The notes under the pieces are model-generated. The model saw nothing but the letters and a program-made list of their open reading frames with translations. It was not told where the DNA came from and ran no database searches. Below, in pieces: positions 7,049 to 32,996 of a DNA stretch of 55,516 nt. Each line of letters starts with the position of its first letter. Positions within the stretch are counted from its first letter, which is position 1. Source of the DNA: Alistipes sp. GTDB taxonomy: Bacteria > Bacteroidota > Bacteroidia > Bacteroidales > Rikenellaceae. Both the position numbers and the translations under genes were made by a program. The stretch spans positions 1 to 55,516 of the forward strand of contig JAFWYM010000038.1 in NCBI GenBank assembly GCA_017517705.1. Direction: 5' to 3'.

Positions 7049-7055
7049 CCCATAT

Positions 7056-8996: not shown

Positions 8997-9400
8997 ACAG
9001 AAGCATAGTGCTACATAACGATACGAAGGAGTTACCTCGCCTTATGAGCTTTGTCGAGAGGGTATGCCACGACCTCGACATCGGCGACGTGATGCCCCTG
9101 CAACTGGCCCTCGAGGAGGTTGTTGTGAATGTGATGCACTATGCTTATGCCTCAGGCACGACAGGCGACATTTGGGTCAGCGTGGAACATAAGAGCGACC
9201 GAGTGGTATTTATAGTCGAGGATGAGGGCATCGCCTTTAACCCCACAAAGGCCCCCGATGTTGACACCAGCCTCTCAGCCGAGGAGCGCAGCATAGGTGG
9301 CCTCGGAATATTTATCGTGCGACAGACGATGGATATCGTGAGATATAGTCGTCGTGGCGAACGTAACAGATTGCGACTAACGAAAATTATTAATAGATAA
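8993..9400 (+). CDS. RsbW-like serine protein kinase / anti-sigma-type switch protein
   Basis: This 135-residue GHKL-ATPase domain protein has the N-box LALEEVVVNV (38-47, Asn46 for Mg-ATP), the G1 box EDEG (76-79) and the G2 box GGLGIFI (102-108). RsbW/SpoIIAB-type kinases phosphorylate a STAS partner and hold a target protein, classically a sigma factor, when the partner is phosphorylated. The start codon overlaps the phosphatase stop codon. No sigma factor gene lies in this operon, so the target held by this kinase is unknown. The closest sigma gene in the window is the ECF factor near 33000, which has its own membrane anti-sigma factor. Confidence 0.9.
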   Translation: MNRSIVLHNDTKELPRLMSFVERVCHDLDIGDVMPLQLALEEVVVNVMHYAYASGTTGDIWVSVEHKSDRVVFIVEDEGIAFNPTKAPDVDTSLSAEERSIGGLGIFIVRQTMDIVRYSRRGERNRLRLTKIINR

Positions 9401-9404
9401 CTAT

Positions 9405-9698
9405 ATGAATATCAACATTAACAAGTGTGACAATAAGTACATCGTAGCTGTAGATGGACGTCTCGACACAAATACAGCACCCGAATTAGAGGCGGCATTG
9501 AATGATATAATCGCCGAGGATATACTCTTAGCGTGCGAAGCCATGGAATATGTTAGCAGTGCCGGTTTGCGTGTCATCCTCGCGCTACACAAGCGACTCG
9601 CAGCCCAGGGCCGTTGTCTCACACTCCGTGGCATACGCCCCGAAGTGCGCTCCGTACTCGATATGACAGGATTCTCGCGCATACTTTGTTTCGAGTAG
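9405..9698 (+). CDS. RsbV-like STAS domain protein (anti-anti-sigma type)
   Basis: A 97-residue single STAS domain. The conserved phosphorylation loop is YVSSAGLRVIL (49-59); Ser51 or Ser52 would be the site modified by the kinase encoded 4 bp upstream and released by the phosphatase. It completes a phosphatase-kinase-STAS partner-switching set in order. The 4'-phosphopantetheinyl transferase gene starts 9 bp downstream, so all are probably on one transcript. Confidence 0.9.
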   Translation: MNININKCDNKYIVAVDGRLDTNTAPELEAALNDIIAEDILLACEAMEYVSSAGLRVILALHKRLAAQGRCLTLRGIRPEVRSVLDMTGFSRILCFE

Positions 9699-9707
9699 CT
9701 CGTCTAA

Positions 9708-10298
9708 ATGATATATATATGCGAAAATATTCTTGACTTAGATGTCGAGAAGGCATTACGTGTGGTATCTACCCAACGTAGGGATAAGGCTCTCCGCTAT
9801 CGCTTCGACATCGACCGCCGACAGAGCCTCGCTGCCTATATGCTGTTGATGTATGGGCTACGCAAGGAGTACAATATCGACATGGCACCCATATTCGCAT
9901 ATACCACTGATGGCAAGCCATATATACGCAATCATATAGACATTCACTTTAACCTTAGTCACTGTCATCGCGCTGTTGCATGTGCCATAAGCAACTACCC
10001 TATCGGTGTTGACATCGAGGCGATAGCTCCCATAGATTGGCATGTAGCACGTCGTGTGATGAACGACGCGCAGCTACGCCACATAGAGTCCTCCGCAGAG
10101 CCCGAGCGCAGCTTCTCACAGTTGTGGACAATGAAGGAGAGCCTATTGAAACAGACGGGCGAAGGGTTGTGCGACGACCTGCCACGTTTGGCTATCGACA
10201 CACAACTCTTCACCCATCATCACGCTAAAGAGTATGTCTGCACGGTATGTTACTCCACGTCCGAGCAAGATGATGCATTTAGCATTGTCACATTATAG
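9708..10298 (+). CDS. 4'-phosphopantetheinyl transferase (Sfp family)
   Basis: A 196-residue enzyme that moves phosphopantetheine from CoA to a conserved Ser of carrier domains. The signature motifs are visible: FNLSHC (81-86), GVDIE (100-104, Mg-binding Asp102 and Glu104) and WTMKESLLK (140-148, Glu144). The obvious client is the NRPS on the opposite strand (11643-18947), which has two carrier domains. Despite this, the gene is placed at the end of the partner-switching operon and not in the NRPS operon. Its last 6 bp overlap the 3' end of the MATE gene, tail to tail. The protein is a little shorter than Sfp (about 224 residues), with a reduced C-terminus. Confidence 0.92.
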   Translation: MIYICENILDLDVEKALRVVSTQRRDKALRYRFDIDRRQSLAAYMLLMYGLRKEYNIDMAPIFAYTTDGKPYIRNHIDIHFNLSHCHRAVACAISNYPIGVDIEAIAPIDWHVARRVMNDAQLRHIESSAEPERSFSQLWTMKESLLKQTGEGLCDDLPRLAIDTQLFTHHHAKEYVCTVCYSTSEQDDAFSIVTL

Positions 10299-11633
10299 AG
10301 TCGCCATCTTTGCACGCACATCCATACGTCCAACCTTATATACAATGCCAATGGCAATCATCTCGAGGATATAGGCAATAAGGTAGCTATACCATATATA
10401 CTCGGGAGCATAGTGTGCCATAATAGATATGACGGGGATTACCGTGAGCGACAATATCAACGACACAAATAGAGACATACGATTGAACGCCAACAGCTTG
10501 AATACTATCATTACGAAGTATATGTAGCAGAATGGGATGAAGCTAACGGCAAAGATTCTCAAGGCGTAGTTACACTCAGCGATAATATCTGCCCCCTCGG
10601 CGCCAAAGAGCGTAGCAATGCTCGAGGGAAACACCCACACGTAGGCACATGTGGCAATCATAGCCACCGTGATGAACCTCAGCGACTTAGCAAAAACAAA
10701 ACGCACACCATCACTATTACGCTCGCCGATGAGCACCGCACCGAGTGTCTGCAACGAGCGACACGTACCAGCGAGAAAGAGGTTGTACACCTGCAATAGG
10801 TTCATACATACCGAGAATACGAAGATACCCTCGCGACCCACAGCCGTAAGCACCATCTTATTCGACGTGAAGAGAAGCAACGTAAGGCATACCGAGGCCA
10901 CAGCCAGGGGTGCTCCCTGCGAGATGATGTCCCGCCACTGGCTAAGGCTACCCCCTTGCGATAAGAGCGACAGCACACGGCTACGATTACTTGGCAAGAA
11001 GTGTAGAAGCATAACCAAGATGCCGACAATATGTCCGATGACCGTAGCCAACGACGAGCCCTCGATGCCCATGCCGAGGAACTTGATAAGCACGACATCG
11101 AGGATGAGGTTTACCACATTATCTATGACAATAGCCAACGATGCCAAACGCGGGCTTCCGTCGACACTTATCATTGTCGACACACCCCACATAAGCATAT
11201 AGGCGGGAGCTCCGAGCAATACTACGCGCAGGTAGTCTGCCACCATGTCGTGTAGCGCAGGATTGTCACAGAGGAACGATGCCACCTGTTCCGTGAAGAG
11301 CAAACCCACAAGTGTGAAGATAACACCTACGCCCAAGCTGCCAAGCATCGACTGCGTGAAGATGTAACGTGCGCGGTCGTGCTCCTTGCGCCCGAGGGCA
11401 TAGCCCACAAGCATACCACCACCCGAGGCGATGATAAGGCTGATGGTCAGCAACAGCTGTATTATGGTGCTATTGAGGTTTATGGCGCTCACGCCATCAC
11501 CACTAATAAGATTACCGACGATGACGCTGTCGACGATAACACCCAACGCCCCCGAGAGCGTAATAAGTATCGACGAGCTTAAGTATCGCCAGAAGAGCGA
11601 GTTTAGCTCCTTACGGTTATTCGTATTCATCAT
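10293..11633 (-). CDS. MATE family efflux transporter
   Basis: A 446-residue protein with about twelve membrane segments and the MATE pattern in its first half (SALGVIVDSVIVGNL-like start, SGGGMLVGYALGR near the second repeat loop). MATE proteins export drugs or small metabolites across the inner membrane by sodium or proton antiport. The gene begins 9 bp after the NRPS stop codon and is the last gene of the operon that starts with the RND pump, so it probably exports the NRPS product or an intermediate. Two Met codons in a row make the exact start uncertain by one residue. Confidence 0.88.
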   Translation of the reverse strand: MMNTNNRKELNSLFWRYLSSSILITLSGALGVIVDSVIVGNLISGDGVSAINLNSTIIQLLLTISLIIASGGGMLVGYALGRKEHDRARYIFTQSMLGSLGVGVIFTLVGLLFTEQVASFLCDNPALHDMVADYLRVVLLGAPAYMLMWGVSTMISVDGSPRLASLAIVIDNVVNLILDVVLIKFLGMGIEGSSLATVIGHIVGILVMLLHFLPSNRSRVLSLLSQGGSLSQWRDIISQGAPLAVASVCLTLLLFTSNKMVLTAVGREGIFVFSVCMNLLQVYNLFLAGTCRSLQTLGAVLIGERNSDGVRFVFAKSLRFITVAMIATCAYVWVFPSSIATLFGAEGADIIAECNYALRIFAVSFIPFCYIYFVMIVFKLLAFNRMSLFVSLILSLTVIPVISIMAHYAPEYIWYSYLIAYILEMIAIGIVYKVGRMDVRAKMATL

Positions 11634-11642
11634 TTCGCACTT

Positions 11643-14600
11643 TTACAATTTGTCGAAGAATCCCATACCTGCAATAGCCTTGAGGAAGCGATCGATGTAA
11701 TCCCATGTTGTGTGCGACCATCGGTAGCCTAAGCGGTAGAGCACCTGCATAGTGTAGATGTTCTGGCGCGTGACATCCGAGGTCTTACGACCGTGAGCCA
11801 TATCCTGGTAGGCCAAGAGACTTGATAGCTGACGTGCCTTCTCGGGATCCTCCTTTGCTATCTCCATACGTCGAGCGAACTCGTCGCCATCAACGAACTC
11901 AACGCCATCGCCCACACACTCAAGCTCCGAAAGCACATCGCCAAAGAGCACCGAGTGGTTGTTGTAGGGGTGGAATACGCAACACTCCTTAGGCGTATGT
12001 GCCAGGAGAACAATAGCACGCGACACCTCGTTAATGGGCGAGAACTCAACGCCATTATCGCGCATCTCATGCGGACAGCAACCCAGCATATTGAACACCT
12101 TGATGCGCCCCATAAAGCTATTTGTCGAGAAGTTAACCTGGAACTCGCCATCCGTCGAGCGTGCTGCGAGGTTGCCTACGCGCATAATCTTTGCACCAAG
12201 GCCACGCAATGCCACCGCCTCGAGGATGATGCGTTCGGCAATATATTTCGAATAGATATACTTGTTACCAAGATACTGACCCAGATATAATGTCTGCTCA
12301 TTGAACACTTGAGTTGATGCTGGCACATCGTTGATACTCAAGCCGCGAGTACTCGCTGTCGAGATATGCACGAGACGAGCATTATGGCTCAAGCAGTACT
12401 CTACGCAACGCTCTGCGCCACCGATGTTGACATCCTCAATCTCCGTACCCTCGGCAAAGTGCTTGACAATGGCAGCACAGTTGAAGATGGTATCAACCTC
12501 TATGCCCTCGAGCAACGTGGATAGGTCGTCAGTGACATCGCCAAGGATAATGTTTAGTCTATCTCCAAGGATGTCATCAAACGTAGAGTCGAAATAGTAG
12601 AATAGCAGTGTCTTAAGACGGCTCTCTGCAGCCGCAATACTCTTACCTCGCACGAGACAGTATATCTTCTCGGCATCAGACGACAATAACTCGCAAAGGA
12701 TATGTATGCCCAGGTAGCCCGTAGCACCCGTAAGCAGCACATTACCCAGCTTCTGCTCACTACCACTACGGAAGGCATCGAGCGTATTCTTAGCAAGGAT
12801 ATTGTTTATCGCCGTATAGTCATAGTCCACAATCGTGGGGTCGAGGATGTTATCCTCGTCGGCAGAGGTGTGCAGGCGCGCAAGTTTACGCGGTGTGGGG
12901 TTAGCAAAGACATCGCCATAGCTCACATGATAGCCCGCCTTGTCAGCCTCGATGATCACACGTGTGACAACAAGCGACGTGCCACCGAGCTCAAAGAAGT
13001 TATCGGCAGCACCAACCCTCTCGAGCTGAAGTATCGAAGCAAAGATATCGCAGAAGGTGCGCTCTACGTCGTTTGCCGGCTCCTCATAGGCACTGCTTGC
13101 TGAGAGCTCAGGCTCGGGCAGCGCCTTAGTGTCAGTCTTACCGTTGGGTGTCATAGGCATGGTTGCAAGCTGTAAGTATGCCGTGGGCACCATATATTGT
13201 GTAAGGTGCTTAGATATCTCCGCCTTAAGCTCCGTGGGGTCTATCTCGCGATTTGCCGTATAGTATGCCGAAAGGTGCTCCTTACCGCTAATCTTGCGAA
13301 TGAGGATTACAACCTTATCGATGCCCTCCACACGCTGCATAACGCTCTCAATCTCGCCCAACTCAATACGCAGGCCACGGAGCTTTATCTGGTTATCCGT
13401 ACGGCCAAGGATCATAACATTGCCATCGGGCAGCCACTTGGCATAATCTCCCGAGCGATATATGCGCTCACCATGATAGTCGATAAAACGCTCACGTGTC
13501 ATCTCGTCGAGATTATTATAACCCTTGGCAACACCCATACCTCCGATATATAGCTCGCCGACAACGCCTACGGGAAGTTCGTTGCCATCCTGGTCGACAA
13601 TAAACTCACGCACGTTGAGTTGAGGACGACCCACGGTCACAATCGAGGCATTGGTGAGCTCAGCATTATTCGACGCTACGGTAATCTCCGTAGGGCCGTA
13701 GCAGTTGAATATACGTGCCGAAGTGATAGCCTTGAGTTGCTCGAGCAATTGCATAGAGAACTTCTCGCCACCGGCACGTACAATATGTATGCTGGAGATG
13801 GCACGCGCAAAATCGTTGCTCGTAAGCCATGTCTGCCAGCGTGAGGGTGTGCCCGAGACCATATCGATGTGCTGCTCTTGAATAAGCGCTGCGAGCTCTA
13901 TAGGGTTGTTGGCCTGCTCCTCGGTGGCAACGATGAGAGTCTTACCGCTATACATCGACGTGCCTATATCCTGCAGTGCTGCATCGAACGATATTGTCGT
14001 CACGCTAAGTATACGACTTGCATCGGTCATCACAGCATTGGCAAATACATTTGCCGGATGACCATAGAGGTAATTGCATATACCTCGGTGGTGAAGCATA
14101 ACGCCTTTAGGACGCCCCGTAGAGCCCGATGTGTATATAAGGTACGACAACGAGTCAGGCGTAACACCCACATTGGGGTTCGTGTCATCCGCCTCCTTGA
14201 GTAGCTCCTCTACATCCACTGCACGGCCACTCTCGAACTCCGCAAGGTGGTCGGCGGTGGTTATAACGTAGTCGGCCTCCGAATCCTCAAGAATCAACTT
14301 CACGCGATCTGCCGGATAGTCGGGATCACAAGGTATATATGCAGCTCCGGCCTTCAACACACCAAACATCGAGAGTATCAGACGGCTGGTACGTGGCAAC
14401 AGCAGAGCCACACGGCTACCTACATCCACACCACGCTTAATGAGCGCATGAGCAATGCGATTCATCGCCTTATTCATCTGGCCATAGCTATAGCTACCAT
14501 CCACGGCAACGAGAGCCTCAGCCTCGGGCTTCACCTCGGCCCAATGCTCCACAGGCTTATGGAAGAGGTTGAAGGGGGCATCACCTATAGCCACCGAGCG

Positions 14601-17600
14601 CAGGGCATCGAGCTCCTTCGCAGCATTAGCGCCAACCATCGACACCTTAAGGAGGCTGCCGCTACGATTCGCCACAAAGCCATCCAGCACAGCAAGCATA
14701 GAGTCACCAAAGCGACGTATGCTATCCTCCGAATATACAGCATCGTTATACTGTAGTTGGATAACGGCACGACCATCGACCTCGGCAATCATTATATCGA
14801 GTTTCTGCTTCGGCACATCGAGCTTCAGCTCACACATCTTAACCTCCATGCCACTAACGCCATACTCGGTCATCACGCCTATCTGATAGGCATAGTTTGT
14901 GGCAAAGGCAAAGTTGTAATCCGCAGCTATGCGCGCAAAAGGATAGTTCTCGTTGCGTATGGCGCCATCAAAATTCTCGCTCACGGCACGCACAAACTCC
15001 TCAATGCTCTGCTCCTTGATATGCGCGTGGAGCGCCAGGGTGTTTACAAACATACCAACCGTGTCGGCAATCGCGAGATTCGAGCGTCCGTTGCTCACGG
15101 TAGCGATGTATATATGGCGATTGTTCGTATAGCGTGCAAGAGTATAGTCTGCCACCGCAAGCATAGTATGCGCCGGGGTGACACCTATCTCGCGACTAAA
15201 GGTCTCGACACGCTCAAGGTCGAACGGCAGGTATATGCGCTGTGAGCGCCCCGTAGACTCGTCACCCTTGAAGTCGGCAGGCAGCTCGCTACACCCCTCG
15301 CACTCCGCAAGCGCCTCGCTGAAGAACTCCTTGGCCGAGATGAAGTCTTGGCTATCCTCGCTACGCTGCTGCTCCGCGGCAAAGGTCATATAGTCGCACG
15401 CCTCCGCCTCGATGTCGCCACCCTCAAGGAGGGCGCATAGCTGGCGATTGAATAGATCGAGCGAGTAGCCATCAGCCACCAAGTGATGAATATCGACAAG
15501 TAGATGCACACCACTATCGGTCTCAACAATGCAGAAGCGATAGAGTGGCTCCTTGGCGAGATGGAAGGGCTGAACAAAGCCATCCTTAAGTATCTGTAAC
15601 TCATCCTCCGTAGCACGCTGGTAGGGCACTTCAACATCGCCATAGTCGCCACGAAGCTGCACAACACCAGCCTCCGTAGACTCGAAGCGAACACCCATCT
15701 CGGGATGAATCCTAACAAGGCTCTTGATGGCCCTCTGTAGGGCCTCTATGTTGGTATCCACAGGGAAATGTAGGCTATAGGGGATGTTGTATGTCGTATC
15801 AAGCGGATGCTTCATACACTCATAGTATACACCCATCTGAGCATAGCTTAGCGGGGCTCTATCGATATTATCGGCGACACTCTCACTCTGGGTGGTTGCA
15901 TCCTTGTCCGACGAGAGCATACTCTCGAGGATGATATTCTCGATGCTCTGTAGCGAGCCACCCTTAAGCAATGCCTTACTATCGACAGCCACGCCAAAGC
16001 GCTTATACACCTGTGTAGTGAGCTTTATCGAGGCTATAGAGGTGAGACCCACGTATGCCAAAGGTGTCGTAACGCCAAACTGCTCGGTGTTAAGAACACC
16101 CGCAATGATAGCGTGCAACTCCCTTTCCAAGAGGTTCATTGGCACGTTACTCTCCACCTCAAGACTCTCAGGCTGACGCTCGGGTTTTGGCAATGCGCGC
16201 TTGTCGACCTTGTGATTCTGCGTTAGCGGTATGCGCTCGATCTGCATAGTGACAGCAGGAACCATATATGGAGGCTTCTCCTCGAGGATAAAGTCGTTGA
16301 GAGCCCTGATGTCGATCTCCTTGTCGCCAACGATATATGCGGCGACATACTTACCGCCACCCTCCTCGTCGAAGGCCTGAACCGTAACATCACGAATGTC
16401 GGGGTATTGACGGATGATAGACTCTATCTCCTTAAGCTCAATGCGGAAGCCTCGAATCTTAACCTGTCCATCTCTACGGCCTACGAACTGCACATTACCA
16501 TCCGTGAGGTAGCGAACGATATCACCGGTGTGGTATACACGGTTATACGCATCATCATCGTTGAATGGGTTCGCCGTAAATACCTTAGCCATCTGCTCCT
16601 CGCGATTTAGATAGCCACGTGACACCTGATGGCCTGCAACCCACAACTCACCCACAGCTCCCGCAGGTAGACGTCGGCCGTTGCCATCAACAACGTACAG
16701 CTTGATATTGGGCAGCGCCTTACCGATGGGGATATTATCCTCGTATTTTGCAACATTGTATACATTGGTATATACACAACACTCCGTGGGGCCATAGGCG
16801 TTGAAGAGCTTAAAGCCCTTTGGTGGCTCTATCGAGGCGAGCTTCTCACCACCCACCATCAATGTCTTAAGGTAGGGGCTCTCACATGCGGTTGCAAACT
16901 GAAAGCCTACCTGTGTAGTCATAAACGATGTTGTAATGCGGTGCTTGAGGAAGTAGTCGTTCAGCGCCACAAAGTCGAGACGTATCTCCTCGGCAATGAT
17001 ATGCAGCGTAGCACCGCTAACGATGGTGCCATAGGTATCCATCAGCGAGGCGTCGAAGCCATAACTTGCGTATGCTGCCACGCGCGACTCTCCCTGAATA
17101 TCGCATATCCTACTATGTGAAAGCGCAAATGCCAAGACATTGCGATGCTCTATCATACATCCCTTGGGCACGCCTGTCGATCCCGAGGTGTAGAGCATAA
17201 TGAAGAGATCGCTCGGCAACACCTCCACACCAACAGGAGTAACAGGCTCATACATCGACGCTATATCGCTTGTATAAAGAATGTTATCTGCCGTCAACTC
17301 CATAGATGCTATAAGTTCAGCATCGCCAATAATCATACGCACGCCAGCATCTGCGGTCATAAATTGCAGGCGCTCACGCGGGTAGCTCGGGTCGAGAGGC
17401 TCATATCCACAGCCCGCCTTAAGAACACCAAGCGAGGCTATCATCATCCACTCCGAGCGCGGGATTATCACCGCCACAACATCATTGCGGCCGAGACCTG
17501 CGCGATGTATGCGGTGTGCTATCTTATTCGATAGCTCGTCGACCTCACGATAACTATAGGCCCTATCCTTATAGACCACTGCGGGGTGATCGGGCGTCTG

Positions 17601-18947
17601 AGCAACGTATTGAGCGAAGTAATCGAGAATAGTCTTAGATGTGTCGTAGTCACGCTCCGTGGCGTTGAACGAGTCGAGCAGTGCCTCCTGCTCGGAGGTA
17701 ATGAACGATAGTTCATTGATGCTCTGCGCGCCATCCTTCATAGAGTTAAGGATAGCCTCGAAGCTATGCACAAGTTGATGAATAAGAGCATCCGAGTATA
17801 AGTGGGCAAAATACTCCACTACAGCACGATAGCTGCCATCACGCTCCTGGTATATCTGCACGGCCAAGGGTTCTGTCGTAGCGCTATCCTCCAAATCAAG
17901 CATCGAAACGGGATAACCACCAATGGACATGTTGTTAAACAGGTAGCCCTGATATACGAAGAGGTAATTAGACTTTATACCCAAAGCTGCATGAGCATCT
18001 GCAAACGAAAATATGCTATGCTTGCGGGCCCCCTTAATAATCTTATCGCCATGAGCAAAAAGCTCAGCAATGGTCATATCGTTATTGAAGGCGTAGTATA
18101 CGGGGAGTGTCTTAACGAACATACCCATTGTGCGCGCCATGCGCCTATCGCCACGACCATGCCATATTGTCGAGAACAACACCTGATCGTCTCCCGTGAA
18201 CTTAGACATCAGAAGTGCAAAGGCTGAGGTAAACAGCGTACCGGGCTTAACGCCAGTGGTATCTATGAGATTACGCAGGTTATCTAAATTGAGATTTAAG
18301 TCATACTCGGCATGCACTACCCTATGCTCCTTATCGTTACGATCGGCAATAATCTGTGTATCCACATCACCGACATTGAAGTTCTCCTCGTGCCAACGAC
18401 GCGCTTCATCATAATCCTGAGAGCCGGCACGCAGTCTGAGCTCCTCGGCAGTGACATCGTAGAAGGTATAATCCTCGGGCTCAATATCCTCGCCACGATA
18501 GGCGCGATCGAGCTCATCCATAAGGATGCTCGCCGAGGCACCATCGCATACTATGTGGTGTACCTCAAAGAGCATATAGTTATGTTCCTTACCCGAATAG
18601 AGCGCAATATGTACTGGGCGACCCTCAGTAAGGTCGAAGCGTTGCGCAATATCGTGCTTCATAGCATCCATATCGGCGACACTCTGGATGTCAACGACTA
18701 TAGGCAGATCCTTGCGCTCGACAATAATAGGCTCGCCGTTATCGTCAGTTGTGTAGTAGGAGTAGAACGCAGGATGAGCCTCGATAACCCTATATATTGC
18801 AGCACGTAAGCGCTCCAGATCTATCGACTTATCGAGCGTATAGAGGAATGGCATATGGTACACCAACGAGTTGGGGTGCTGTATAGATTCGACATATATG
18901 CCCATCTGCGATTGCGATAGAGGCGTAGACTTTAGGCCGTTACTCAT
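11643..18947 (-). CDS. Two-module nonribosomal peptide synthetase, C-A-T-C-A-T-Reductase
   Basis: 2434 residues. C1 is about 7-430 (HHIVCDG 130-136); A1 437-920 (YTSGSTG 586-592, NAYGPTE 716-722); T1 938-1010 (pantetheinyl Ser970 in an atypical GLTSI context); C2 1032-1430 (HHLVADG 1154-1160); A2 1463-1945 (YTSGSTG 1605-1611, NCYGPTE 1748-1754); T2 1958-2025 (LGGTS, Ser1991); and a thioester reductase 2067-2434 (GATGYLG 2074-2080, catalytic Tyr2230 and Lys2234). All catalytic motifs look intact. It should join two amino acids and release them by NAD(P)H reduction as an aldehyde or alcohol. A leading C domain suggests that the first residue is N-acylated or accepts an upstream donor. The gene follows the RND outer membrane channel by 23 bp and precedes MATE by 9 bp. 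The product is unknown. Confidence 0.95.
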   Translation of the reverse strand: MSNGLKSTPLSQSQMGIYVESIQHPNSLVYHMPFLYTLDKSIDLERLRAAIYRVIEAHPAFYSYYTTDDNGEPIIVERKDLPIVVDIQSVADMDAMKHDIAQRFDLTEGRPVHIALYSGKEHNYMLFEVHHIVCDGASASILMDELDRAYRGEDIEPEDYTFYDVTAEELRLRAGSQDYDEARRWHEENFNVGDVDTQIIADRNDKEHRVVHAEYDLNLNLDNLRNLIDTTGVKPGTLFTSAFALLMSKFTGDDQVLFSTIWHGRGDRRMARTMGMFVKTLPVYYAFNNDMTIAELFAHGDKIIKGARKHSIFSFADAHAALGIKSNYLFVYQGYLFNNMSIGGYPVSMLDLEDSATTEPLAVQIYQERDGSYRAVVEYFAHLYSDALIHQLVHSFEAILNSMKDGAQSINELSFITSEQEALLDSFNATERDYDTSKTILDYFAQYVAQTPDHPAVVYKDRAYSYREVDELSNKIAHRIHRAGLGRNDVVAVIIPRSEWMMIASLGVLKAGCGYEPLDPSYPRERLQFMTADAGVRMIIGDAELIASMELTADNILYTSDIASMYEPVTPVGVEVLPSDLFIMLYTSGSTGVPKGCMIEHRNVLAFALSHSRICDIQGESRVAAYASYGFDASLMDTYGTIVSGATLHIIAEEIRLDFVALNDYFLKHRITTSFMTTQVGFQFATACESPYLKTLMVGGEKLASIEPPKGFKLFNAYGPTECCVYTNVYNVAKYEDNIPIGKALPNIKLYVVDGNGRRLPAGAVGELWVAGHQVSRGYLNREEQMAKVFTANPFNDDDAYNRVYHTGDIVRYLTDGNVQFVGRRDGQVKIRGFRIELKEIESIIRQYPDIRDVTVQAFDEEGGGKYVAAYIVGDKEIDIRALNDFILEEKPPYMVPAVTMQIERIPLTQNHKVDKRALPKPERQPESLEVESNVPMNLLERELHAIIAGVLNTEQFGVTTPLAYVGLTSIASIKLTTQVYKRFGVAVDSKALLKGGSLQSIENIILESMLSSDKDATTQSESVADNIDRAPLSYAQMGVYYECMKHPLDTTYNIPYSLHFPVDTNIEALQRAIKSLVRIHPEMGVRFESTEAGVVQLRGDYGDVEVPYQRATEDELQILKDGFVQPFHLAKEPLYRFCIVETDSGVHLLVDIHHLVADGYSLDLFNRQLCALLEGGDIEAEACDYMTFAAEQQRSEDSQDFISAKEFFSEALAECEGCSELPADFKGDESTGRSQRIYLPFDLERVETFSREIGVTPAHTMLAVADYTLARYTNNRHIYIATVSNGRSNLAIADTVGMFVNTLALHAHIKEQSIEEFVRAVSENFDGAIRNENYPFARIAADYNFAFATNYAYQIGVMTEYGVSGMEVKMCELKLDVPKQKLDIMIAEVDGRAVIQLQYNDAVYSEDSIRRFGDSMLAVLDGFVANRSGSLLKVSMVGANAAKELDALRSVAIGDAPFNLFHKPVEHWAEVKPEAEALVAVDGSYSYGQMNKAMNRIAHALIKRGVDVGSRVALLLPRTSRLILSMFGVLKAGAAYIPCDPDYPADRVKLILEDSEADYVITTADHLAEFESGRAVDVEELLKEADDTNPNVGVTPDSLSYLIYTSGSTGRPKGVMLHHRGICNYLYGHPANVFANAVMTDASRILSVTTISFDAALQDIGTSMYSGKTLIVATEEQANNPIELAALIQEQHIDMVSGTPSRWQTWLTSNDFARAISSIHIVRAGGEKFSMQLLEQLKAITSARIFNCYGPTEITVASNNAELTNASIVTVGRPQLNVREFIVDQDGNELPVGVVGELYIGGMGVAKGYNNLDEMTRERFIDYHGERIYRSGDYAKWLPDGNVMILGRTDNQIKLRGLRIELGEIESVMQRVEGIDKVVILIRKISGKEHLSAYYTANREIDPTELKAEISKHLTQYMVPTAYLQLATMPMTPNGKTDTKALPEPELSASSAYEEPANDVERTFCDIFASILQLERVGAADNFFELGGTSLVVTRVIIEADKAGYHVSYGDVFANPTPRKLARLHTSADEDNILDPTIVDYDYTAINNILAKNTLDAFRSGSEQKLGNVLLTGATGYLGIHILCELLSSDAEKIYCLVRGKSIAAAESRLKTLLFYYFDSTFDDILGDRLNIILGDVTDDLSTLLEGIEVDTIFNCAAIVKHFAEGTEIEDVNIGGAERCVEYCLSHNARLVHISTASTRGLSINDVPASTQVFNEQTLYLGQYLGNKYIYSKYIAERIILEAVALRGLGAKIMRVGNLAARSTDGEFQVNFSTNSFMGRIKVFNMLGCCPHEMRDNGVEFSPINEVSRAIVLLAHTPKECCVFHPYNNHSVLFGDVLSELECVGDGVEFVDGDEFARRMEIAKEDPEKARQLSSLLAYQDMAHGRKTSDVTRQNIYTMQVLYRLGYRWSHTTWDYIDRFLKAIAGMGFFDKL

Positions 18948-18970
18948 AGTATCGTGTTTTAGTATTTATA

Positions 18971-20353
18971 TTATTCTGCATTCTGGTCAAGCTGTTCGCG
19001 ACCACCACCAAGTGCCGTGTAGAGCGTGATGATACCCTGCACCTCCTCGAAGCGGTCGTTGATCTGCGCAATGCGACCCGAAAGTAGATTCTGCTGTGCT
19101 GTGAGCACCTCAAGATATGTCGTCGAGCCATACTGCATAAGCATCTCAGTGCTCTCGACAGCAATCTCCAGTGCCTCAATCTGTTTCTGGCGCCACTCAT
19201 GCTTGGCACGCGCCGTTTGTATCTGTGCCAGAGCGCTATTAACCTCACCACCGGCATTCAACAGCGACTGACGGAAGCCAATGAGTGCCTCCTGCTGTTG
19301 CGCCTCGGCAATCTTAACACCAGCACGCGCTCTACCTGCATTGAAGATAGGCGCGGTGAGCGATGCTGCTGCGGAGAGTAGTAGACCACCGGGATTTACA
19401 ACAACACTGCCGGCATTATTTGCCCAGCCGATGAGGCCATTGAGTGTCAATGTAGGATATAGTGCCGAGCGTGCTGCTGCCGTGGCATAGAATGCTTGCA
19501 TGAGGTTATACTCCGCAAGGCGCACATCGGGACGATTGGATAGCAGCTGTACGGGGATGCCCGTAGCCAACTCCTCGGGCAGGCTCTGCTCCAAGAACGA
19601 CGAGCGTTCTATGGCATGGGGTACATCGCCAAGGAGCGCACAGAGGCCATTCTCCACCTCACGAATCTGAAGCTCTATGTCGAAGAGCGACGCCCGAGCG
19701 GCGTGAGCAGCAGCATCCATCTGTGACACAGCAGCCATATTGGTCATGCCGGCATCCATCATAGCACGCATAGTCTCAGCACTGCGATCAAACGACTCTG
19801 CCGTAAGGCGCGTAACCTCACGCTGAGCATCGAGCATCTGCAACGTGTAGTAATAGTTGGCAATGGTCGACACCAGCTGTGCGTGTACTGCCTGACGATA
19901 CTCCAACGACTGCTCATAGAGAGCCTTGGCCTTGCGCTTAGCGTTGGTGATACCCCCGAAGATGTCTATCTGCCACGATGCAGCCATAGGGGCAGAATAT
20001 GTCCACGAACCGGCACTGCCATCGAAACTCGACACGCCACCCGTGGGACTGAGGTTGAACGATGGGAGGTATGCTAAACGTGCCGACTTAAGTGCCGCCT
20101 CCGCCTCCTTGATACGCCACGTGGCAGCCTGCATATCGCTATTATGTTCCAAACCGTCGGCGATAAGCTGCTGTAGGTGGCTGTCGGTGAAGAACTCACG
20201 CCACTCGATGGTGGCAATAGTTGTAGTATCCGTAGTCTCGTGCTCAGCACCGTAGAGACCCTCGGTAGAGACCTCGGGGCGGCTATAGGGCTTATAGATA
20301 CCACAGCTTGTGATGGCAAGCGCAAGGGTTATAAAAAATATATATTTCTTCAT
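18971..20353 (-). CDS. RND efflux outer membrane channel (NodT/OprM family lipoprotein)
   Basis: A 460-residue TolC-like protein with a lipoprotein signal (Cys17 in ITSCG) and two OEP repeats rich in Ala, Gln and Glu, typical of the long periplasmic helices. Conserved outer membrane efflux pieces such as SNRPDVRLAEYNL and GWANNAG are visible. It would form the exit duct for the RND pump encoded 5 bp upstream. The NRPS start codon lies 23 bp downstream, so channel, pump, adaptor and synthetase belong to one operon. Length fits the family. Confidence 0.93.
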   Translation of the reverse strand: MKKYIFFITLALAITSCGIYKPYSRPEVSTEGLYGAEHETTDTTTIATIEWREFFTDSHLQQLIADGLEHNSDMQAATWRIKEAEAALKSARLAYLPSFNLSPTGGVSSFDGSAGSWTYSAPMAASWQIDIFGGITNAKRKAKALYEQSLEYRQAVHAQLVSTIANYYYTLQMLDAQREVTRLTAESFDRSAETMRAMMDAGMTNMAAVSQMDAAAHAARASLFDIELQIREVENGLCALLGDVPHAIERSSFLEQSLPEELATGIPVQLLSNRPDVRLAEYNLMQAFYATAAARSALYPTLTLNGLIGWANNAGSVVVNPGGLLLSAAASLTAPIFNAGRARAGVKIAEAQQQEALIGFRQSLLNAGGEVNSALAQIQTARAKHEWRQKQIEALEIAVESTEMLMQYGSTTYLEVLTAQQNLLSGRIAQINDRFEEVQGIITLYTALGGGREQLDQNAE

Positions 20354-20358
20354 ACGTC

Positions 20359-23300
20359 TTAGCTATTAATGATTTTATCGACCTCCTCCATCTCGTGCTT
20401 AATAGCAGGCTCAGGATCGGGATTTACATCCAACGGATGAATCTTCTCCTGAAGCCACTGGAATGCGATGAAGAGACCCGGAACAAGGAAGAGAAGCGCC
20501 AACGTGCCGATGAACATACCTCCAACGACACCCGTGCCGAGCGACGAGTTGCCATTAGCACCCACACCCGAAGAGAACATCAACGGCAACATACCGAAGA
20601 TCATCATCAACACGGTCATCAGAATAGGACGCAGACGTGCTCGTGCTGCAGCCAAGGCCGCCTGCTTAAGCGACATACCCGCACGACGACGCTCCGAGGC
20701 GTACTCCGTCAGAAGAATGGCAGTCTTCGATAGCAGACCGATAATCATAATCATACCCGTCTGCAGATATATATTATTCTCCAAGCCCATGACACGAGCA
20801 AACAGAAGACAGCCCATAAGTCCTGCGGGCACAGCCAAGAGCACAGCAAAGGGTATGAGATAGCTCTCGTATAGCGCCGCCAGCAGGAGATATATAAGCA
20901 AGAAGCAGATGCCATAGACAACGATAGCATTGCTCGATGTACCCTCCTCCTCGCGTGTAAGGTCGCTGAACTCGAAGCCATAGCCTCGTGGCAATACCCT
21001 CTCGGCCGTCTCCTTGATGGCTCGAATAGCATCACCCGAAGAGTAACCCTCGGCAGCCTCGCCATTTACAGCGATGGAGTTATCCATATTGAAGCGGTTA
21101 AGCGTCTCAGGGCCATATATCTTCTCGAGCGTAATAAACTGGCTCACAGGAGCCATCTCGCCATTAACCCTCACATAAACATTATCGAGCGACGCCACAT
21201 CCTTTCTATCCATCGGGTCGGCCTGAATCATAACACGGTAGACCTTCGAGAAGCGGTTGACGTCCGAGACATACTGACCACCATAGTAACCACCAATAGT
21301 CGACAGCACATCCTTAGGCGATATGCCCGCGCGCTTACACTTTGCGGCATCCACATCAACCATATACTGCGGGAAGTTCACATTGTACGTGGTATAGGCC
21401 ATACCTATCTCCGGGCGTTCGTTGAGGGCGGCAATAAACTGCTGCGCAACCTTATAGAAGTCGCGGATATCGCCGCCACTACTATCCTGCAGGTGCATCG
21501 AGAAGCCACTGGCCGTACCATAGCCCGAGATCATAGGTGGCACGATGGCAATGACCTGAGCATCCTTAATATCGGCACACATTGCCATAATCTTCTGACT
21601 CAGGTAGGCGACGTTATCCGTATCCTCGGGGCGCTCATCCCAATTCTTCAGACGCACGATGAGCGTACCATACGACGAGCCCTGGCCCGAGAGGATGCCG
21701 AAGCCTGAAATCTTACAGAAGGAGTCTATCTGATCTAGGGTCTCCACACGGTCGCTAATCTCGGCCATAATCTTATTCGTCTGCTCAAGTGTTGAGCCTG
21801 GCGCCATAGTCACATTGACCATAATCGTTCCTTGATCCTCCGAGGGCACAAGACCCGTCTTTGTCGAGGTGAAGAGGTAGGCCATAGCTGCAATAGAGAG
21901 GGCAAGTGTACCCCACAACACCCAACGACGCTTAACGAAGAAGTGTACACCGCGCTGGTAGCGTTTAAGTAGCGCATCAAATGCCGTATTGTAGGCCTTG
22001 CCAAAGCGCTGCATAAGCGTAGGACGACCCTCATGGCTCTCCTCGTGAGGCTTGAGCATCATGGCACATAGTGCCGGCGAGAGCGTGAGTGCGTTGATGC
22101 CCGAGATACCTACAGCCACAGCCATCGTAATACCAAACTGTGTGTAGAATATTCCCGACGTGCCACCCATCATCGACACAGGGATAAACACCGCCATAAA
22201 GACAAGTGTAGAGGTGACAATGGCAGATGAGATACCCGTCATAGCATCAACCGTAGCCTTATAAGGAGAACGGTAGCCCGCCTCGAACTTAGCCTGCACA
22301 GCCTCCACAACGATAACCGCATCGTCGACAACAGTACCGATAGCCAACACCAACGCAAAGAGCGTAAGCATATTAATCGAAAAGCCTAAGGCAACAAGCG
22401 CTGCAAACGTACCTACCAGCGAAACAATAATCGAGATAAGCGGGATGATTGAAGAACGAACACTCTGCAAGAAGATGAACACAACGAGGATAACAAGGAT
22501 GATAGCCTCGATAAGGGTATGTATCACCTCGTGGATAGATGCAAAAAGGAAGTCGTTGGTATCCATAATACTAACAAACTCGACATCACGCGGAGCTTTA
22601 GACTTCTCCTCCTCAATAAGTTTGTCGATGCTCCTAAGCACCTCGGTAGCATTCGAGCCAGGCGTCTGGTATATCATCGCAACAATACCCGTGTGACCAT
22701 TAACCTCACTTGTGTAGGCGTATGTCTCGTTGCCAAACTCCACACGTGCCACATCCTTCAAGCGAAGCACCTCGCCCGAAGGCAACGACTTAAGAACGAT
22801 GTCGCCGAACTCCTCGGGCGTAACCTTACGTCCCGTATAACGCATCGTATATTGGAACGTACCTCCCGAGTTCTCGCCGAGGTTACCCGTCGACGACTCT
22901 ATATTCTGCTCCGCAAGGATGGCAGTGATATCCTGGGGTACAAGACCATACTGCGCCATAACATCGGGCTTCATCCATATTCGCATAGAGTACTTCGAGC
23001 CCATTGTCATACACTCACCCACACCGTTGATACGCAACAACTTAGGCTTGATATTATTCGAAAAGTAGTTCGATAGAAATGTCTCGTCGTAGGTCTCATT
23101 GGGCGAATATACACCGATAGCCTTGATGATGGATGTCTGCTTCTTAGATGTCTGGACACCCACACGCGTAACCTCTGCAGGCAACACCGACGATGCTCGC
23201 GACACACGATTCTGCACATTCACGGCAGCCATATCGGGGTCGGTACCCTGCTCAAAGTATATCGAGATAGACACACTACCTGTATTCGAGGCCGTAGAGG

Positions 23301-23538
23301 TCATATATGTCATATTCTCCACGCCATTAATCTGCTCCTCGAGGGGTGCGATAACAGCCTTCTGTATTGTCTCGGCTGAGGCTCCCGGATAGGATGTTGA
23401 CACGTTGATCGTTGGCGGTGCAATATCGGGGTACTGCTCGACAGGTAGCGACACCAGACCGATGACGCCGGCAAACATTATCGTTATCGATATCACCGTC
23501 GAGAGGACAGGGCGGTCGATAAATCTCTTTAAGTTCAT
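20359..23538 (-). CDS. RND efflux pump, hydrophobe/amphiphile (AcrB/MexB) type
   Basis: 1059 residues, the usual size for an HAE1-type inner-membrane pump with twelve membrane segments and two large periplasmic loops. The start (FIDRPVLSTVISI) and the proton-relay segment with paired Asp in the fourth helix (GTVVDDAVIVVEA) are characteristic. It uses the proton gradient to expel amphiphilic compounds through the adaptor and channel encoded on either side. The spacing to the adaptor gene (18 bp) and to the channel gene (5 bp) indicates one transcript. Being in the NRPS operon, it could export the peptide product or protect the producer from it; this is inferred. Confidence 0.95.
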   Translation of the reverse strand: MNLKRFIDRPVLSTVISITIMFAGVIGLVSLPVEQYPDIAPPTINVSTSYPGASAETIQKAVIAPLEEQINGVENMTYMTSTASNTGSVSISIYFEQGTDPDMAAVNVQNRVSRASSVLPAEVTRVGVQTSKKQTSIIKAIGVYSPNETYDETFLSNYFSNNIKPKLLRINGVGECMTMGSKYSMRIWMKPDVMAQYGLVPQDITAILAEQNIESSTGNLGENSGGTFQYTMRYTGRKVTPEEFGDIVLKSLPSGEVLRLKDVARVEFGNETYAYTSEVNGHTGIVAMIYQTPGSNATEVLRSIDKLIEEEKSKAPRDVEFVSIMDTNDFLFASIHEVIHTLIEAIILVILVVFIFLQSVRSSIIPLISIIVSLVGTFAALVALGFSINMLTLFALVLAIGTVVDDAVIVVEAVQAKFEAGYRSPYKATVDAMTGISSAIVTSTLVFMAVFIPVSMMGGTSGIFYTQFGITMAVAVGISGINALTLSPALCAMMLKPHEESHEGRPTLMQRFGKAYNTAFDALLKRYQRGVHFFVKRRWVLWGTLALSIAAMAYLFTSTKTGLVPSEDQGTIMVNVTMAPGSTLEQTNKIMAEISDRVETLDQIDSFCKISGFGILSGQGSSYGTLIVRLKNWDERPEDTDNVAYLSQKIMAMCADIKDAQVIAIVPPMISGYGTASGFSMHLQDSSGGDIRDFYKVAQQFIAALNERPEIGMAYTTYNVNFPQYMVDVDAAKCKRAGISPKDVLSTIGGYYGGQYVSDVNRFSKVYRVMIQADPMDRKDVASLDNVYVRVNGEMAPVSQFITLEKIYGPETLNRFNMDNSIAVNGEAAEGYSSGDAIRAIKETAERVLPRGYGFEFSDLTREEEGTSSNAIVVYGICFLLIYLLLAALYESYLIPFAVLLAVPAGLMGCLLFARVMGLENNIYLQTGMIMIIGLLSKTAILLTEYASERRRAGMSLKQAALAAARARLRPILMTVLMMIFGMLPLMFSSGVGANGNSSLGTGVVGGMFIGTLALLFLVPGLFIAFQWLQEKIHPLDVNPDPEPAIKHEMEEVDKIINS

Positions 23539-23556
23539 AATCTAACTATTAACGGG

Positions 23557-24687
23557 TTAGTTCTCAACGGTGGTGACATCAGCGCCACCCTTCTCCTTCA
23601 GTTCCACAGCGGCACCCTCACGCAACATAGCGACACCCTCAGTGATGATCACATCGCCAGCCTCAAGGCCACTCTTAACGATGTAGTTCACGCCATCGTA
23701 GTTGACAACCTCTACCATCTGCGATACCGCACGGCCATCGATAGGCATATAGACGAACTTCTTATCCTGAACCTCGTAGGTTGCTACGCAGGGAATGATG
23801 ATACACTCCTTCTGCTCGTAGCGCAGCACCACATTACCCGTGCTGCCACTATGCAATAATCTGTCAGGATTGGGGAATACTGCGCGCAACGATATAGAGC
23901 CGGTATTCGGGTCGATAACTCCGCTGATAGACTCAATATTGCCCGCGTGCTCGTACATCGAGCCATCGCTAAGCATAAGCTCGGGCTTAGGCAGCGCCTC
24001 GAGAGCGCGCTCCATCGAGCCATACTGGCGTGTGAGGTTAAGAAGTAGCGTCTCGTTCATCGAGAAATAGACATACATCTCAGAGTTATCCGACACGGTG
24101 GTTAGAGGCTGCGGCATCGAGGGGCCAACAAGAGCACCTACACGAAACGGTATCGTACCCACAACACCATTGGCAGGAGCCTTGACATACGTATAACTAA
24201 GGCTATTGGCAGCATTTACGCGCTGAGCCTCAGCCTGAGCAAGTGCCGCCTCGGCCGTGAGCAGATGATTCTCGGCCATACTCAGATCGTACTGCGAGAT
24301 GATGTTGCGCGCAAAGAGTTCACGCTTGCTCTCGAGCGTCAACTCGGCCGTAGCGACGCTGGCCTCTGCAGCCTTGACATTGGCCTCAGCCGTGGTGAGC
24401 GCAGCCTTAAAGGGAACCTGATCGATGATAAAGAGCGTCTCGCCACGCTTTACCGTCTCACCCTCGGTAACACACACCTTCGAGATGGTACCGCTAACCT
24501 GCGGCATAATATTTATATCCTGGCGACCGCGTATCGACGCCGAGAACTTACTCGCCACCTCCGCATCGGTAATGGCTACCGTCATCCACTCGTATGCAGA
24601 CACGGGCTCCACCTTTGGCGCCTCATTGCACGAAGCCAAGAGTAGCATAAATGTGAGGATAACACCTCCAAATAGAGATCTCTTCAT
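23557..24687 (-). CDS. RND efflux periplasmic adaptor (AcrA/MexA type lipoprotein)
   Basis: A 376-residue membrane fusion protein with a lipobox (LASC, Cys20). A barrel-sandwich hybrid (GTISKVCVTEGETVKRG around 75-90), an alpha-helical hairpin rich in Ala and Glu (about 100-170) and a beta-barrel domain (YVKAPANGVVGTIPF, then 200-290) follow in order. It links the RND pump to the outer membrane channel. It is the first gene of the operon; a promoter box lies 57-64 bp upstream. Confidence 0.93.
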   Translation of the reverse strand: MKRSLFGGVILTFMLLLASCNEAPKVEPVSAYEWMTVAITDAEVASKFSASIRGRQDINIMPQVSGTISKVCVTEGETVKRGETLFIIDQVPFKAALTTAEANVKAAEASVATAELTLESKRELFARNIISQYDLSMAENHLLTAEAALAQAEAQRVNAANSLSYTYVKAPANGVVGTIPFRVGALVGPSMPQPLTTVSDNSEMYVYFSMNETLLLNLTRQYGSMERALEALPKPELMLSDGSMYEHAGNIESISGVIDPNTGSISLRAVFPNPDRLLHSGSTGNVVLRYEQKECIIIPCVATYEVQDKKFVYMPIDGRAVSQMVEVVNYDGVNYIVKSGLEAGDVIITEGVAMLREGAAVELKEKGGADVTTVEN

Positions 24688-24743
24688 ATATTATAGTATT
24701 TATTAGTTTATATTCTATATTATTACTTTTATATCCGTTCGCG

Positions 24744-24751
24744 CAAAGATA
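24744..24751 (-). promoter_or_regulatory. -7 promoter box of the RND-NRPS-MATE operon
   Basis: TATCTTTG on the minus strand matches TAnnTTTG. It leaves an A/T-rich untranslated leader of about 50 nt before the ATG at 24687. No clear -33 TTTG is present, which may mean weak or regulated initiation. No repressor or activator gene is adjacent. Confidence 0.65.
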
Positions 24752-24830: not shown

Positions 24831-24880
24831 ACAAAAAAACGGGGATGACTAAAAAGTAAATTTGTCATCCCCGTTTTGTT
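24831..24880. terminator. Bidirectional terminator, copy 1 of the dispersed repeat
   Basis: CGGGGATGAC (24840-24849) and GTCATCCCCG (24864-24873) form a perfect 10-bp stem. The minus strand continues into seven T and the plus strand into TTTTGTT. It separates the alanine dehydrogenase transcript from the RND-NRPS promoter about 90 bp downstream on the minus strand. Confidence 0.85.
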
Positions 24881-26227: not shown

Positions 26228-27394
26228 CTATTTATCGAAATTTTTACAAACGCGACTATGTTTTTCTGCAACAACAGCAACTAACAGATAGAATAGAGCA
26301 AGGGCGATAAGTATGTACATCTCGCTCGATATATCACTCAGCGACGCACCCATAGTCCCGATAGCGACGTATCCCCGCACAGCACTACTACTGGGCAGGA
26401 GCTCGCCAATGAGATACAACCACTCAGGGAAGGCCTCCTTGGGAAGCGAGAGGCCGGCCAAGAGAAGTATCGGCACAGAGCTCCATAGAAGCAACAAGAA
26501 GGGCGACTCGCGTCTCTTAAAGAGATGCGAAAGGGCAAGTCCAAGAGAAATCACGGCAACAAGATATGCAGTCATAAGAGAGACAATATCGAGCGTAGCA
26601 CCTGCATACGGAAAGCCAAATATAGGCCAAACAACGCCCAAGATTATGATTAAGTTAATAGCATATATCATCATATAAACCAAAATCTTGGCAGCTGTTA
26701 TCTTTACCGAAGTCCAGAGGGTTATAACCTCGGGATACAGCCCCATCGCCCGACGACGAACAGCCATAAGTGCAAGGCCTATAAGAAGCGTTTGTTGAAC
26801 GATTACAACGAGTATTGAAGGCATAACGAATGAGCCATACCCGAGAGAGGTGTTATACATTACATTGCCATCGTAAGCAACGGGCTGTACCGCGCCCAGA
26901 ATGGTGGCAGCATCAAGTCCTCGAGCAACGAGGCGTTCAACCTCCACATTAGCACCATAGGTGAGAATGTCGGCAGCGGCCTGCTGTAATACCTGGCGAT
27001 AGATAAGCAGGTGGCTACCGTCAAGAACAATACCCACATCTGCCTGATTACCCGAGAGTAAGTCGCGTTCATATCCCGAAGGAATGTAGACAACGCCATA
27101 GATATCGCGATCGTAAAACATAGACTCAGCATCAGCCGTTGACACAAGGCTATATCCGACCTTTGTGTTGGGCCCCGAACGCAAACCATCAACCAAGCGA
27201 CGACTCGAAGCAGTATTATCCTCATCAACAACACCAATGACAACATCCCTGACCACCTCCTTGCCATAAGCCACGGAGTATACGACCGTATATATCAATA
27301 TCGCAAAGACGAGAATGAGCACAGCACCGGCATCACCGAACAATAGATGTAGTTCATCTTTTATTGTTGATATAAATATATTTGCACGCTTCAT
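26228..27394 (-). CDS. ABC-2 type transporter permease (second of two)
   Basis: 388 residues with one membrane segment near the N-terminus (about 22-45), a large extracytoplasmic domain (about 45-185) and five or more segments in the C-terminal half, the standard ABC-2 permease layout. It is similar in plan, though not closely in sequence, to the preceding gene product, so the pair may form a heterodimer. The start codon lies 1 bp after the upstream permease gene stop codon. It is the last gene of the TolC-HlyD-permease-permease operon. No ATP-binding subunit is encoded in this operon. Confidence 0.87.
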   Translation of the reverse strand: MKRANIFISTIKDELHLLFGDAGAVLILVFAILIYTVVYSVAYGKEVVRDVVIGVVDEDNTASSRRLVDGLRSGPNTKVGYSLVSTADAESMFYDRDIYGVVYIPSGYERDLLSGNQADVGIVLDGSHLLIYRQVLQQAAADILTYGANVEVERLVARGLDAATILGAVQPVAYDGNVMYNTSLGYGSFVMPSILVVIVQQTLLIGLALMAVRRRAMGLYPEVITLWTSVKITAAKILVYMMIYAINLIIILGVVWPIFGFPYAGATLDIVSLMTAYLVAVISLGLALSHLFKRRESPFLLLLWSSVPILLLAGLSLPKEAFPEWLYLIGELLPSSSAVRGYVAIGTMGASLSDISSEMYILIALALFYLLVAVVAEKHSRVCKNFDK

Positions 27395-27395
27395 A

Positions 27396-28571: not shown

Positions 28572-28575
28572 AGTA

Positions 28576-29562: not shown

Positions 29563-29589
29563 AATATTATAACGATTATATAAAGCTAT

Positions 29590-31020: not shown

Positions 31021-31137
31021 AGCAAAACGTTTACCCGACGATAGCAAATATCGAGCAAAACAATAATACTCCTTTGGCATATATCTTGCGCTACGGCTCA
31101 CGACATAACACTTATTTATAACTTAAACATATCAGTT

Positions 31138-32926: not shown

Positions 32927-32963
32927 AATGATGGTTGCGATGTTACGTTTCGCAACCATCATT
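32927..32963. terminator. 14-bp hairpin between DUF4491 and the sigma factor gene
   Basis: AATGATGGTTGCGA (32927-32940) and TCGCAACCATCATT (32950-32963) form a perfect 14-bp stem with a 9-nt loop. On the plus strand no T-tract follows; on the minus strand a T-rich run does. It may end the DUF4491 transcript or stabilise its 3' end. Confidence 0.55.
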
Positions 32964-32996
32964 CGTTATATAGGCAAACAACAACCTAAAAAAGGA

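Follow-up and report, generated by a model that had tools for sequence, protein, structure and literature searches.

A reductase-ended peptide synthetase island with partner-switch genes, possibly brought in behind a resident RND efflux operon in Alistipes

How does a nonribosomal peptide synthetase (NRPS) come to lie directly behind a tripartite efflux pump, and do synthetase and pump belong to one system? The question is raised by a contig of Alistipes sp. (GenBank assembly GCA_017517705.1, contig JAFWYM010000038.1), which was analysed over its full 55,516 nucleotides, here called the window. Its minus strand carries, one after another, the adaptor, permease, and outer-membrane channel of an RND pump, a two-module NRPS with a terminal reductase, and a MATE exporter. 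A preliminary description of this DNA viewed the array as a synthetase wired directly to a pump. On balance, we think that the array consists of two abutting units, namely a resident HAE1-type RND operon and a patchily distributed secondary-metabolite island placed under the pump promoter, the island possibly combining dipeptide-aldehyde synthesis and export with a partner switch.

The genes were assigned using Pfam and NCBIfam profiles. All five frames start with ATG and stop with TAA. The periplasmic adaptor, or membrane fusion protein (23557–24687, 376 aa), matched TIGR01730 with 249.6 bits (cut-off 94.9); the HAE1-type RND permease (20359–23538, 1059 aa) matched PF00873 with 994.7 bits and TIGR00915 with 1028.5 bits (cut-off 940.35); and the TolC/NodT-type outer-membrane channel (18971–20353, 460 aa) matched TIGR01845 with 252.8 bits (cut-off 210.05). 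With all three components above their family cut-offs, the pump is a tripartite HAE1 RND system. They are followed by the NRPS (11643–18947, 2434 aa) and the MATE exporter (10293–11633, 446 aa; PF01554, 90.2 bits), and the open reading frame (ORF) coordinates leave gaps of 18, 5, 23, and 9 bp in order from the adaptor to the MATE gene. Coordinates, gaps, and family profiles thus bear out the five genes, their order, and their spacing as first described. The domain architecture claimed for the synthetase also stands: its Pfam stretches comprise two condensation (C), two AMP-binding (A), and two PP-binding (T) domains and one NAD_binding_4 reductase (R), read as C-A-T-C-A-T-R, with HHxxxDG in both C domains, carrier serines in GLTS and GGTS, and GATGYLG together with S2199/Y2230/K2234 in the reductase. 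We take these motifs to have their usual catalytic meanings.

The preliminary description left out the convergent half of the locus (7056–10298, plus strand), which holds a 4'-phosphopantetheinyl transferase (PPTase) and three signalling genes. The PPTase (9708–10298, 196 aa) matches PF01648 and PF22624 and is AusB-like, with 95.6 bits against NF047349 (AusB), below the cut-off of 225; its gene converges with the MATE gene, and their 3' ends overlap by 6 bp. Ahead of it lie, in order, a membrane sensor phosphatase of 646 aa with dCache, HAMP, and SpoIIE domains (7056–8996; PF07228 182.8, PF22673 91.6, PF02743 60.2, and PF00672 53.6 bits), an RsbW-like ATPase/kinase of 135 aa with the N, G1, and G2 motifs all present (8993–9400; PF13581, 81.3 bits), and an RsbV-like STAS-domain antagonist of 97 aa (9405–9698; PF01740, 62.6 bits). 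With a PP2C phosphatase, a STAS protein, and a HATPase kinase, the RsbU/V/W-type module is complete by domains. A profile search of the source genome (1.99 Mb in 48 contigs, 96% complete) returned a single PF13581 match and a single PF01740 match, both at this locus. The string R.WY, which we take to be the dCache amino-acid motif, does not occur in the window phosphatase, and a like string was seen in 3 of 60 proteins of relatives.

Synthetase matches are confined to 5 of 268 genomes of the family, the source included. Full-length orthologues were found in G055 (84%) and G022 (80%); G003 has a divergent copy split over two contigs, and G209 a distant match. A larger variant in G003, a genome of the same genus as the window (L016:1–8904), runs from the end of the synthetase through an A-T-thioesterase protein and a MATE-RsbW fusion to a PPTase. 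Relatives were gathered by a scan with a five-sequence synthetase alignment, from which the best 80 of 197 were kept; the record titles of these 80 name a ruminant host in 24 cases and Bacillota in 6. A quick tree of 76 sequences groups the window synthetase with those of G055 (L079), G022 (L116), and locus L078 with a support of 100, and in these three, too, the MATE gene comes next after the synthetase.

The neighbourhood survey counted genes within 10 kb of the synthetase in 88 loci, or 84 after four duplicates were dropped. STAS genes accompany the synthetase in 64 of the 84, RsbW in 59, SpoIIE in 56, and all three together in 54; MATE genes are found in 43, PPTase genes in 27, and a barrel protein in 32. 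Where at least 5 kb was available on both sides, a partner-switch gene lay within 5 kb in 45 of 55 loci. An RND gene occurs in two of the 84 loci and on the same strand upstream in one, although up and down sides in this survey can be wrong where genes overlap; the layout is as rare as first proposed. Among 20 hand-picked control loci with other Bacteroidales NRPS genes, STAS, RsbW, SpoIIE, and MATE were each found in none and PPTase in four; three of the controls are shorter than 9 kb (L195, L200, L209), a reductase-like domain is present in three (L195, L202, L207), and one of the latter, L207, coincides with L057 of the survey. Because the partner-switch genes are common in the 84 loci and absent from the 20 controls, their association looks specific to this synthetase family. 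The barrel protein is Alginate_exp-like: 21 of 22 scanned members match PF13372, and its model is strand-rich (pLDDT 73.4). A search run without a positive control found no member of the barrel family in G000, G055, G022, G071, or G064. We make no claim that TolC replaces the barrel of the relatives: the window and L052 have none near the synthetase, but the same is true of G055 and G022. Two further neighbour clusters are known from one representative each by Pfam, the sodium:neurotransmitter symporter family (nine loci; L157:24602–25954) and the serine dehydratase alpha chain (four loci; L143:7223–8518).

The pump has a different distribution. RND homologues at E ≤ 1e-100 occur in 113 of 121 genus genomes, the source included, many of them paralogues at 37–40% identity. 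Seven congeners have an RND match of 80–95% (G022, G067, G071, G112, G078, G121, G109), and only G022 among them has the synthetase, there on a different contig from the pump. G055, which has the synthetase, lacks a close pump, its best RND match being 38%, and seven of nine congeners searched have no synthetase. The stand-alone HAE1 triads of the genus share the adaptor-RND-channel order of the window, and their RND permeases are 80–95% identical to that of the window; unlike the window, they carry no synthetase behind the channel gene within the stretches read, which in G121 end 63 bp and in G071 210 bp after the channel gene, at the contig end.

An empty site was recognised by gene comparison with G071, whose matching locus lacks the island (7049–18970 of the window). 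The adaptor and RND permease match their G071 counterparts at 87% and 95%, and no synthetase was found in that genome. G071 keeps the window gene order from 31101 to 18971, and there the stop of the channel gene lies 9 bp from the stop of a 242-aa gene. In the window, the latter (6320–7048, plus strand) flanks the island and is not part of its core; its product has an N-terminal hydrophobic stretch and no family, and its weak structure prediction (pLDDT 62.5) was not used. A second G071 contig carries the same genes in the same order as the window between 1048 and 6320. Nine genus genomes have the 242-aa gene, and in six of them no synthetase was found; G075 has it in a 12.3-kb contig with none of the island genes. 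A chimeric contig at the channel-synthetase junction is unlikely, since both flanks belong to one locus in G071. The idea that the pump is a conserved part of the cluster was ruled out by the single same-strand RND among the 84 loci together with the G071 empty site. A shared descent of pump and synthetase system is therefore not supported, given also the wide occurrence of RND genes in the genus and the separate contigs in G022.

How the synthetase is transcribed bears on the same question. The Bacteroides-type −7 promoter motif TATCTTTG (24744–24751, minus strand) lies 64 bp before the adaptor start; we take TAnnTTTG to be the consensus. The four other minus-strand matches between 10200 and 25100, at 22411, 15054, 13047, and 12585, are all within coding sequence. 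The 300 bp ahead of the window synthetase contain no TAnnTTTG. In G055, G022, and L078, the motif occurs at most about 105 bp ahead of the synthetase gene; the average over the whole window is 0.09 per 300 bp, with more expected in A+T-rich gaps. With a gap of 23 bp to the channel gene and no promoter motif of its own, the synthetase gene is probably transcribed from the pump promoter. The single upstream motif fits the one-promoter operon of the preliminary description, and one transcript over the five genes is plausible. On the plus strand, the 242-aa gene is preceded by a motif at a distance of 56 bp, and the 300 bp ahead of each of the four genes that follow it (phosphatase, kinase, STAS, and PPTase) contain none, so that these five genes may form one operon. 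Upstream of the pump promoter lies a hairpin (24840–24873) with a perfect GC-rich stem of 10 bp and, on the minus strand, a run of T behind it; it may be a terminator insulating the operon from the gene at 25025.

The simplest reading is that the island was brought in behind a resident pump operon; alternatively, G071 may have lost an older arrangement. Several observations weigh against our account. In G071, the site spans two contigs, each of which ends within the 242-aa gene. G064 (80% complete) has the phosphatase, kinase, STAS, and PPTase genes with no MATE or synthetase gene in its 13.8-kb contig, a set that might be a vestige or might serve a different purpose; it adjoins the 242-aa gene (L178:4072–8038). 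Sixteen of the 84 loci have no partner-switch gene within 10 kb; in six of them the sequence ends within 5 kb on one or both sides, and the remaining ten include the 80% orthologue L078. Finally, no pump adjoins the synthetases of G055, G022, and L078. This last point, together with the near-universal RND genes of the genus and the rarity of an upstream pump, also fits a chance neighbourhood, in which a general efflux pump happens to lie upstream, read-through is incidental, and the product leaves by the MATE exporter and other routes. We regard such a coincidence as unlikely, though far from negligible. With a gap of 23 bp and no promoter motif in it, shared transcription is likely irrespective of how the arrangement arose, and in G520 (L052; 32% identity) a distant synthetase has its own outer-membrane factor (OMF)-adaptor-RND set upstream, with 436 bp between RND and synthetase genes. 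With this second case, the pairing of pump and synthetase has probably arisen at least twice.

What the synthetase makes is likely a dipeptide aldehyde or alcohol, an aldehyde being in keeping with the intact reductase. Its nearest solved structures were 6vtj (252.6 bits), presumably an archaeal T-R didomain, and the AusA R domain (4f6c, 130.9 bits). Some dipeptide aldehydes from the gut inhibit proteases. Such aldehydes are NRPS products by description: a review attributes ruminopeptin and other gut dipeptide aldehydes to NRPSs, with Ruminococcus bromii as a source, in the part of its text used here (PMC12327764). Our amino-acid predictions were dropped and no residue is claimed: the codes DAMFMGAVYK (A1) and DAQSRGCVAK (A2) are uncertain, the latter being identical in 30 of 82 rows with 26 rows unreadable where the alignment slipped, and a pairwise check gave W, not S, at its position 4. 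The PheA positions used to extract the codes are our assumption.

By analogy, the product is perhaps also N-capped. C1 (residues 1–435) matches five structures that we take to be starter C domains (8f7h and 8f7f of surfactin, 7c1k, 7c1h, and 7c1p; 25–29 bits, 5 of 42 rows), yet it scores higher on other C domains; none of the 33 structures matched by C2 belongs to that set. Six of nine relatives inspected (five without redundancy, as L118 repeats L048) are about 2970–3000 aa long and carry an additional A-T at the N-terminus. In all six, the N-terminal A domain lacks Asp235, presumably the residue binding the amino group, and because this loader lacks it, C1 of these relatives probably receives a non-amino acid. 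Directly 3' of the synthetase in 11 loci (for example L087:14612–15964 and L127:17316–18668), three of which also have the loader (L126, L132, L156), is a 450-aa AMP-ligase-like protein, possibly an acyl-activating enzyme; its one representative tested scored 26.8 bits against PF00501, under the cut-off. Two points tell against a cap: the window synthetase has no N-terminal loader, the loader-bearing loci forming another branch of the quick tree, and in the AusA profile about 995 positions precede the C domain matched by the window C1 and C2, about 430 beyond the need of A and T. Since the profile thus leaves N-terminal positions unassigned for AusA as well, whose products have a free amine, an N-terminal C domain is no proof of a cap.

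The same resemblance to AusA would allow an aureusimine-like product, a free-amine dipeptide aldehyde cyclising to a pyrazinone. NF047350 (AusA) is the top-ranked NCBIfam match of the whole synthetase with 1126.1 bits, the PPTase is AusB-like, and AusA may itself hold the extra N-terminal stretch just mentioned. Both scores are, however, far below the cut-offs, 2500 for AusA and 225 for AusB, and the relatives would load a non-amino acid ahead of C1. In the excerpts available to us, AusA of Staphylococcus aureus, partnered by AusB in aureusimine formation, is described as A-T-C-A-T-R (PMC12153313); the window synthetase is likewise dimodular, reductase-ended, and paired with a PPTase, but its C1 matches the internal C domain of AusA, not the N-terminus. 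We consider a pyrazinone improbable; of the product classes in the first description, the aldehyde fits and the pyrazinone fits less well.

A cluster of this type is already described in Methanobrevibacter ruminantium (Leahy et al. 2010, PMC2812497). According to the sections of that report drawn on here, the M1 cluster around mru0068 combines a two-module C-A-T-C-A-T NRPS with MatE, serine phosphatases, and an anti-sigma-factor antagonist, a set tentatively interpreted by its authors in terms of sensing, regulation, export, and N-acylated peptides. The release domain of mru0068 is a thioester reductase in the legend of its Figure S8 and a thioesterase in its main text. By description, the window shares the two-module C-A-T-C-A-T synthetase with terminal reductase and the adjacent MatE, serine phosphatase, and anti-sigma antagonist genes; it differs in that the M. 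ruminantium host is an archaeon, that the PPTase and anti-sigma kinase lie there in a separate cluster, and that those sections mention no RND pump. A survey of rumen biosynthetic gene clusters reports, in the portion consulted, many NRPS clusters of Bacteroidaceae and archaeal ones similar to those of Firmicutes (PMC8241843); neither "anti-sigma" nor "reductase" occurs in its main text.

These features can be assembled into a possible route. The island would comprise the synthetase and MATE genes on one strand and the PPTase, sensor phosphatase, kinase, and STAS genes on the other. The PPTase would prime both carriers, C1 might cap the first residue with an acyl group, which is the step we are least sure of, C2 would join the second residue, and the R domain with NAD(P)H would release a dipeptide aldehyde or alcohol. 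The MATE exporter could then move the product over the inner membrane, and the RND-TolC assembly could carry it on from the periplasm out of the cell. Through its dCache sensor, the phosphatase would set the phosphorylation state of the STAS protein and, through it, the activity of the cluster.

On what does the switch act? Modules of RsbW, STAS, and SpoIIE proteins classically target sigma factors, and RsbW might hold one here as well, possibly the primary one, with the module switching transcription. There is a precedent in Chlamydia, where, as stated in the part of the source seen, a switch-protein kinase network controls the availability of the main sigma subunit (PMC4552016). Control of this kind is conceivable, although we would not expect it. 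A search of the genome (96% complete as assembled) found five region-2 matches, of which one, the presumed primary sigma factor, also has region 3 and four do not, and no sigma-B/F-type factor besides the primary one. Archaea are not known to have bacterial sigma factors. A like gene set stands beside an NRPS gene in an archaeon, by the description cited above (PMC2812497). One of the five region-2 matches is an ECF-type sigma factor (32928–33509, plus strand) about 8 kb from the pump promoter.

Fusions among the relatives suggest that the switch addresses the exporter. Fusion of the RsbW domain with SpoIIE was counted in 52 of 60 ORFs, and fusion with MATE in 9 of 47, the latter from 8 non-redundant loci; these ORF counts include four duplicate loci. 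In the MATE-fused RsbW domains, the N-box Glu is kept in 9/9, the N-box Asn in 8/9, and DxG in 9/9, and the first G2 glycine is absent in at least seven of the nine. A locus of Prevotellaceae (L126, 5994–18859) reads SpoIIE, STAS, MATE-RsbW, and synthetase with gaps of 14, 39, and 12 bp, and no RsbW besides the MATE-fused one was found within its 28.9 kb. We tentatively propose, as a doubtful yet attractive idea, that the kinase acts on the exporter and perhaps also on the synthetase, and not on a sigma factor, whereby an outside signal received by the dCache phosphatase would gate peptide secretion post-translationally. No title or abstract among the matches listed in the open-licence literature deals with partner switching together with an NRPS.

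Elsewhere in the window, a further export set lies upstream of the pump (26228–31101, minus strand), in the same order in G071, with two permease-like genes (26228–27394, weakly like ABC-2 efflux permeases, and 27396–28604), an HlyD adaptor, and an outer-membrane channel. An Rfam scan of 5000–26500 gave no match, nor did PADLOC on four proteins.

In summary, the notion of an NRPS wired to a pump would give way to that of a conserved system, a small reductase-ended synthetase family of gut Bacteroidales travelling with a MATE exporter and a sensor phosphatase, kinase, and STAS protein, and the window would exemplify the capture of such an island by a resident efflux operon. If the kinase does act on the exporter, it would represent a new output type for partner switching, common to gut Bacteroidota, Bacillota, and, by report, an archaeon. 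Control of export by the switch would offer a tractable case of signal-gated peptide aldehyde secretion in gut microbes and could explain why like genes stand beside the NRPS gene of a methanogen.

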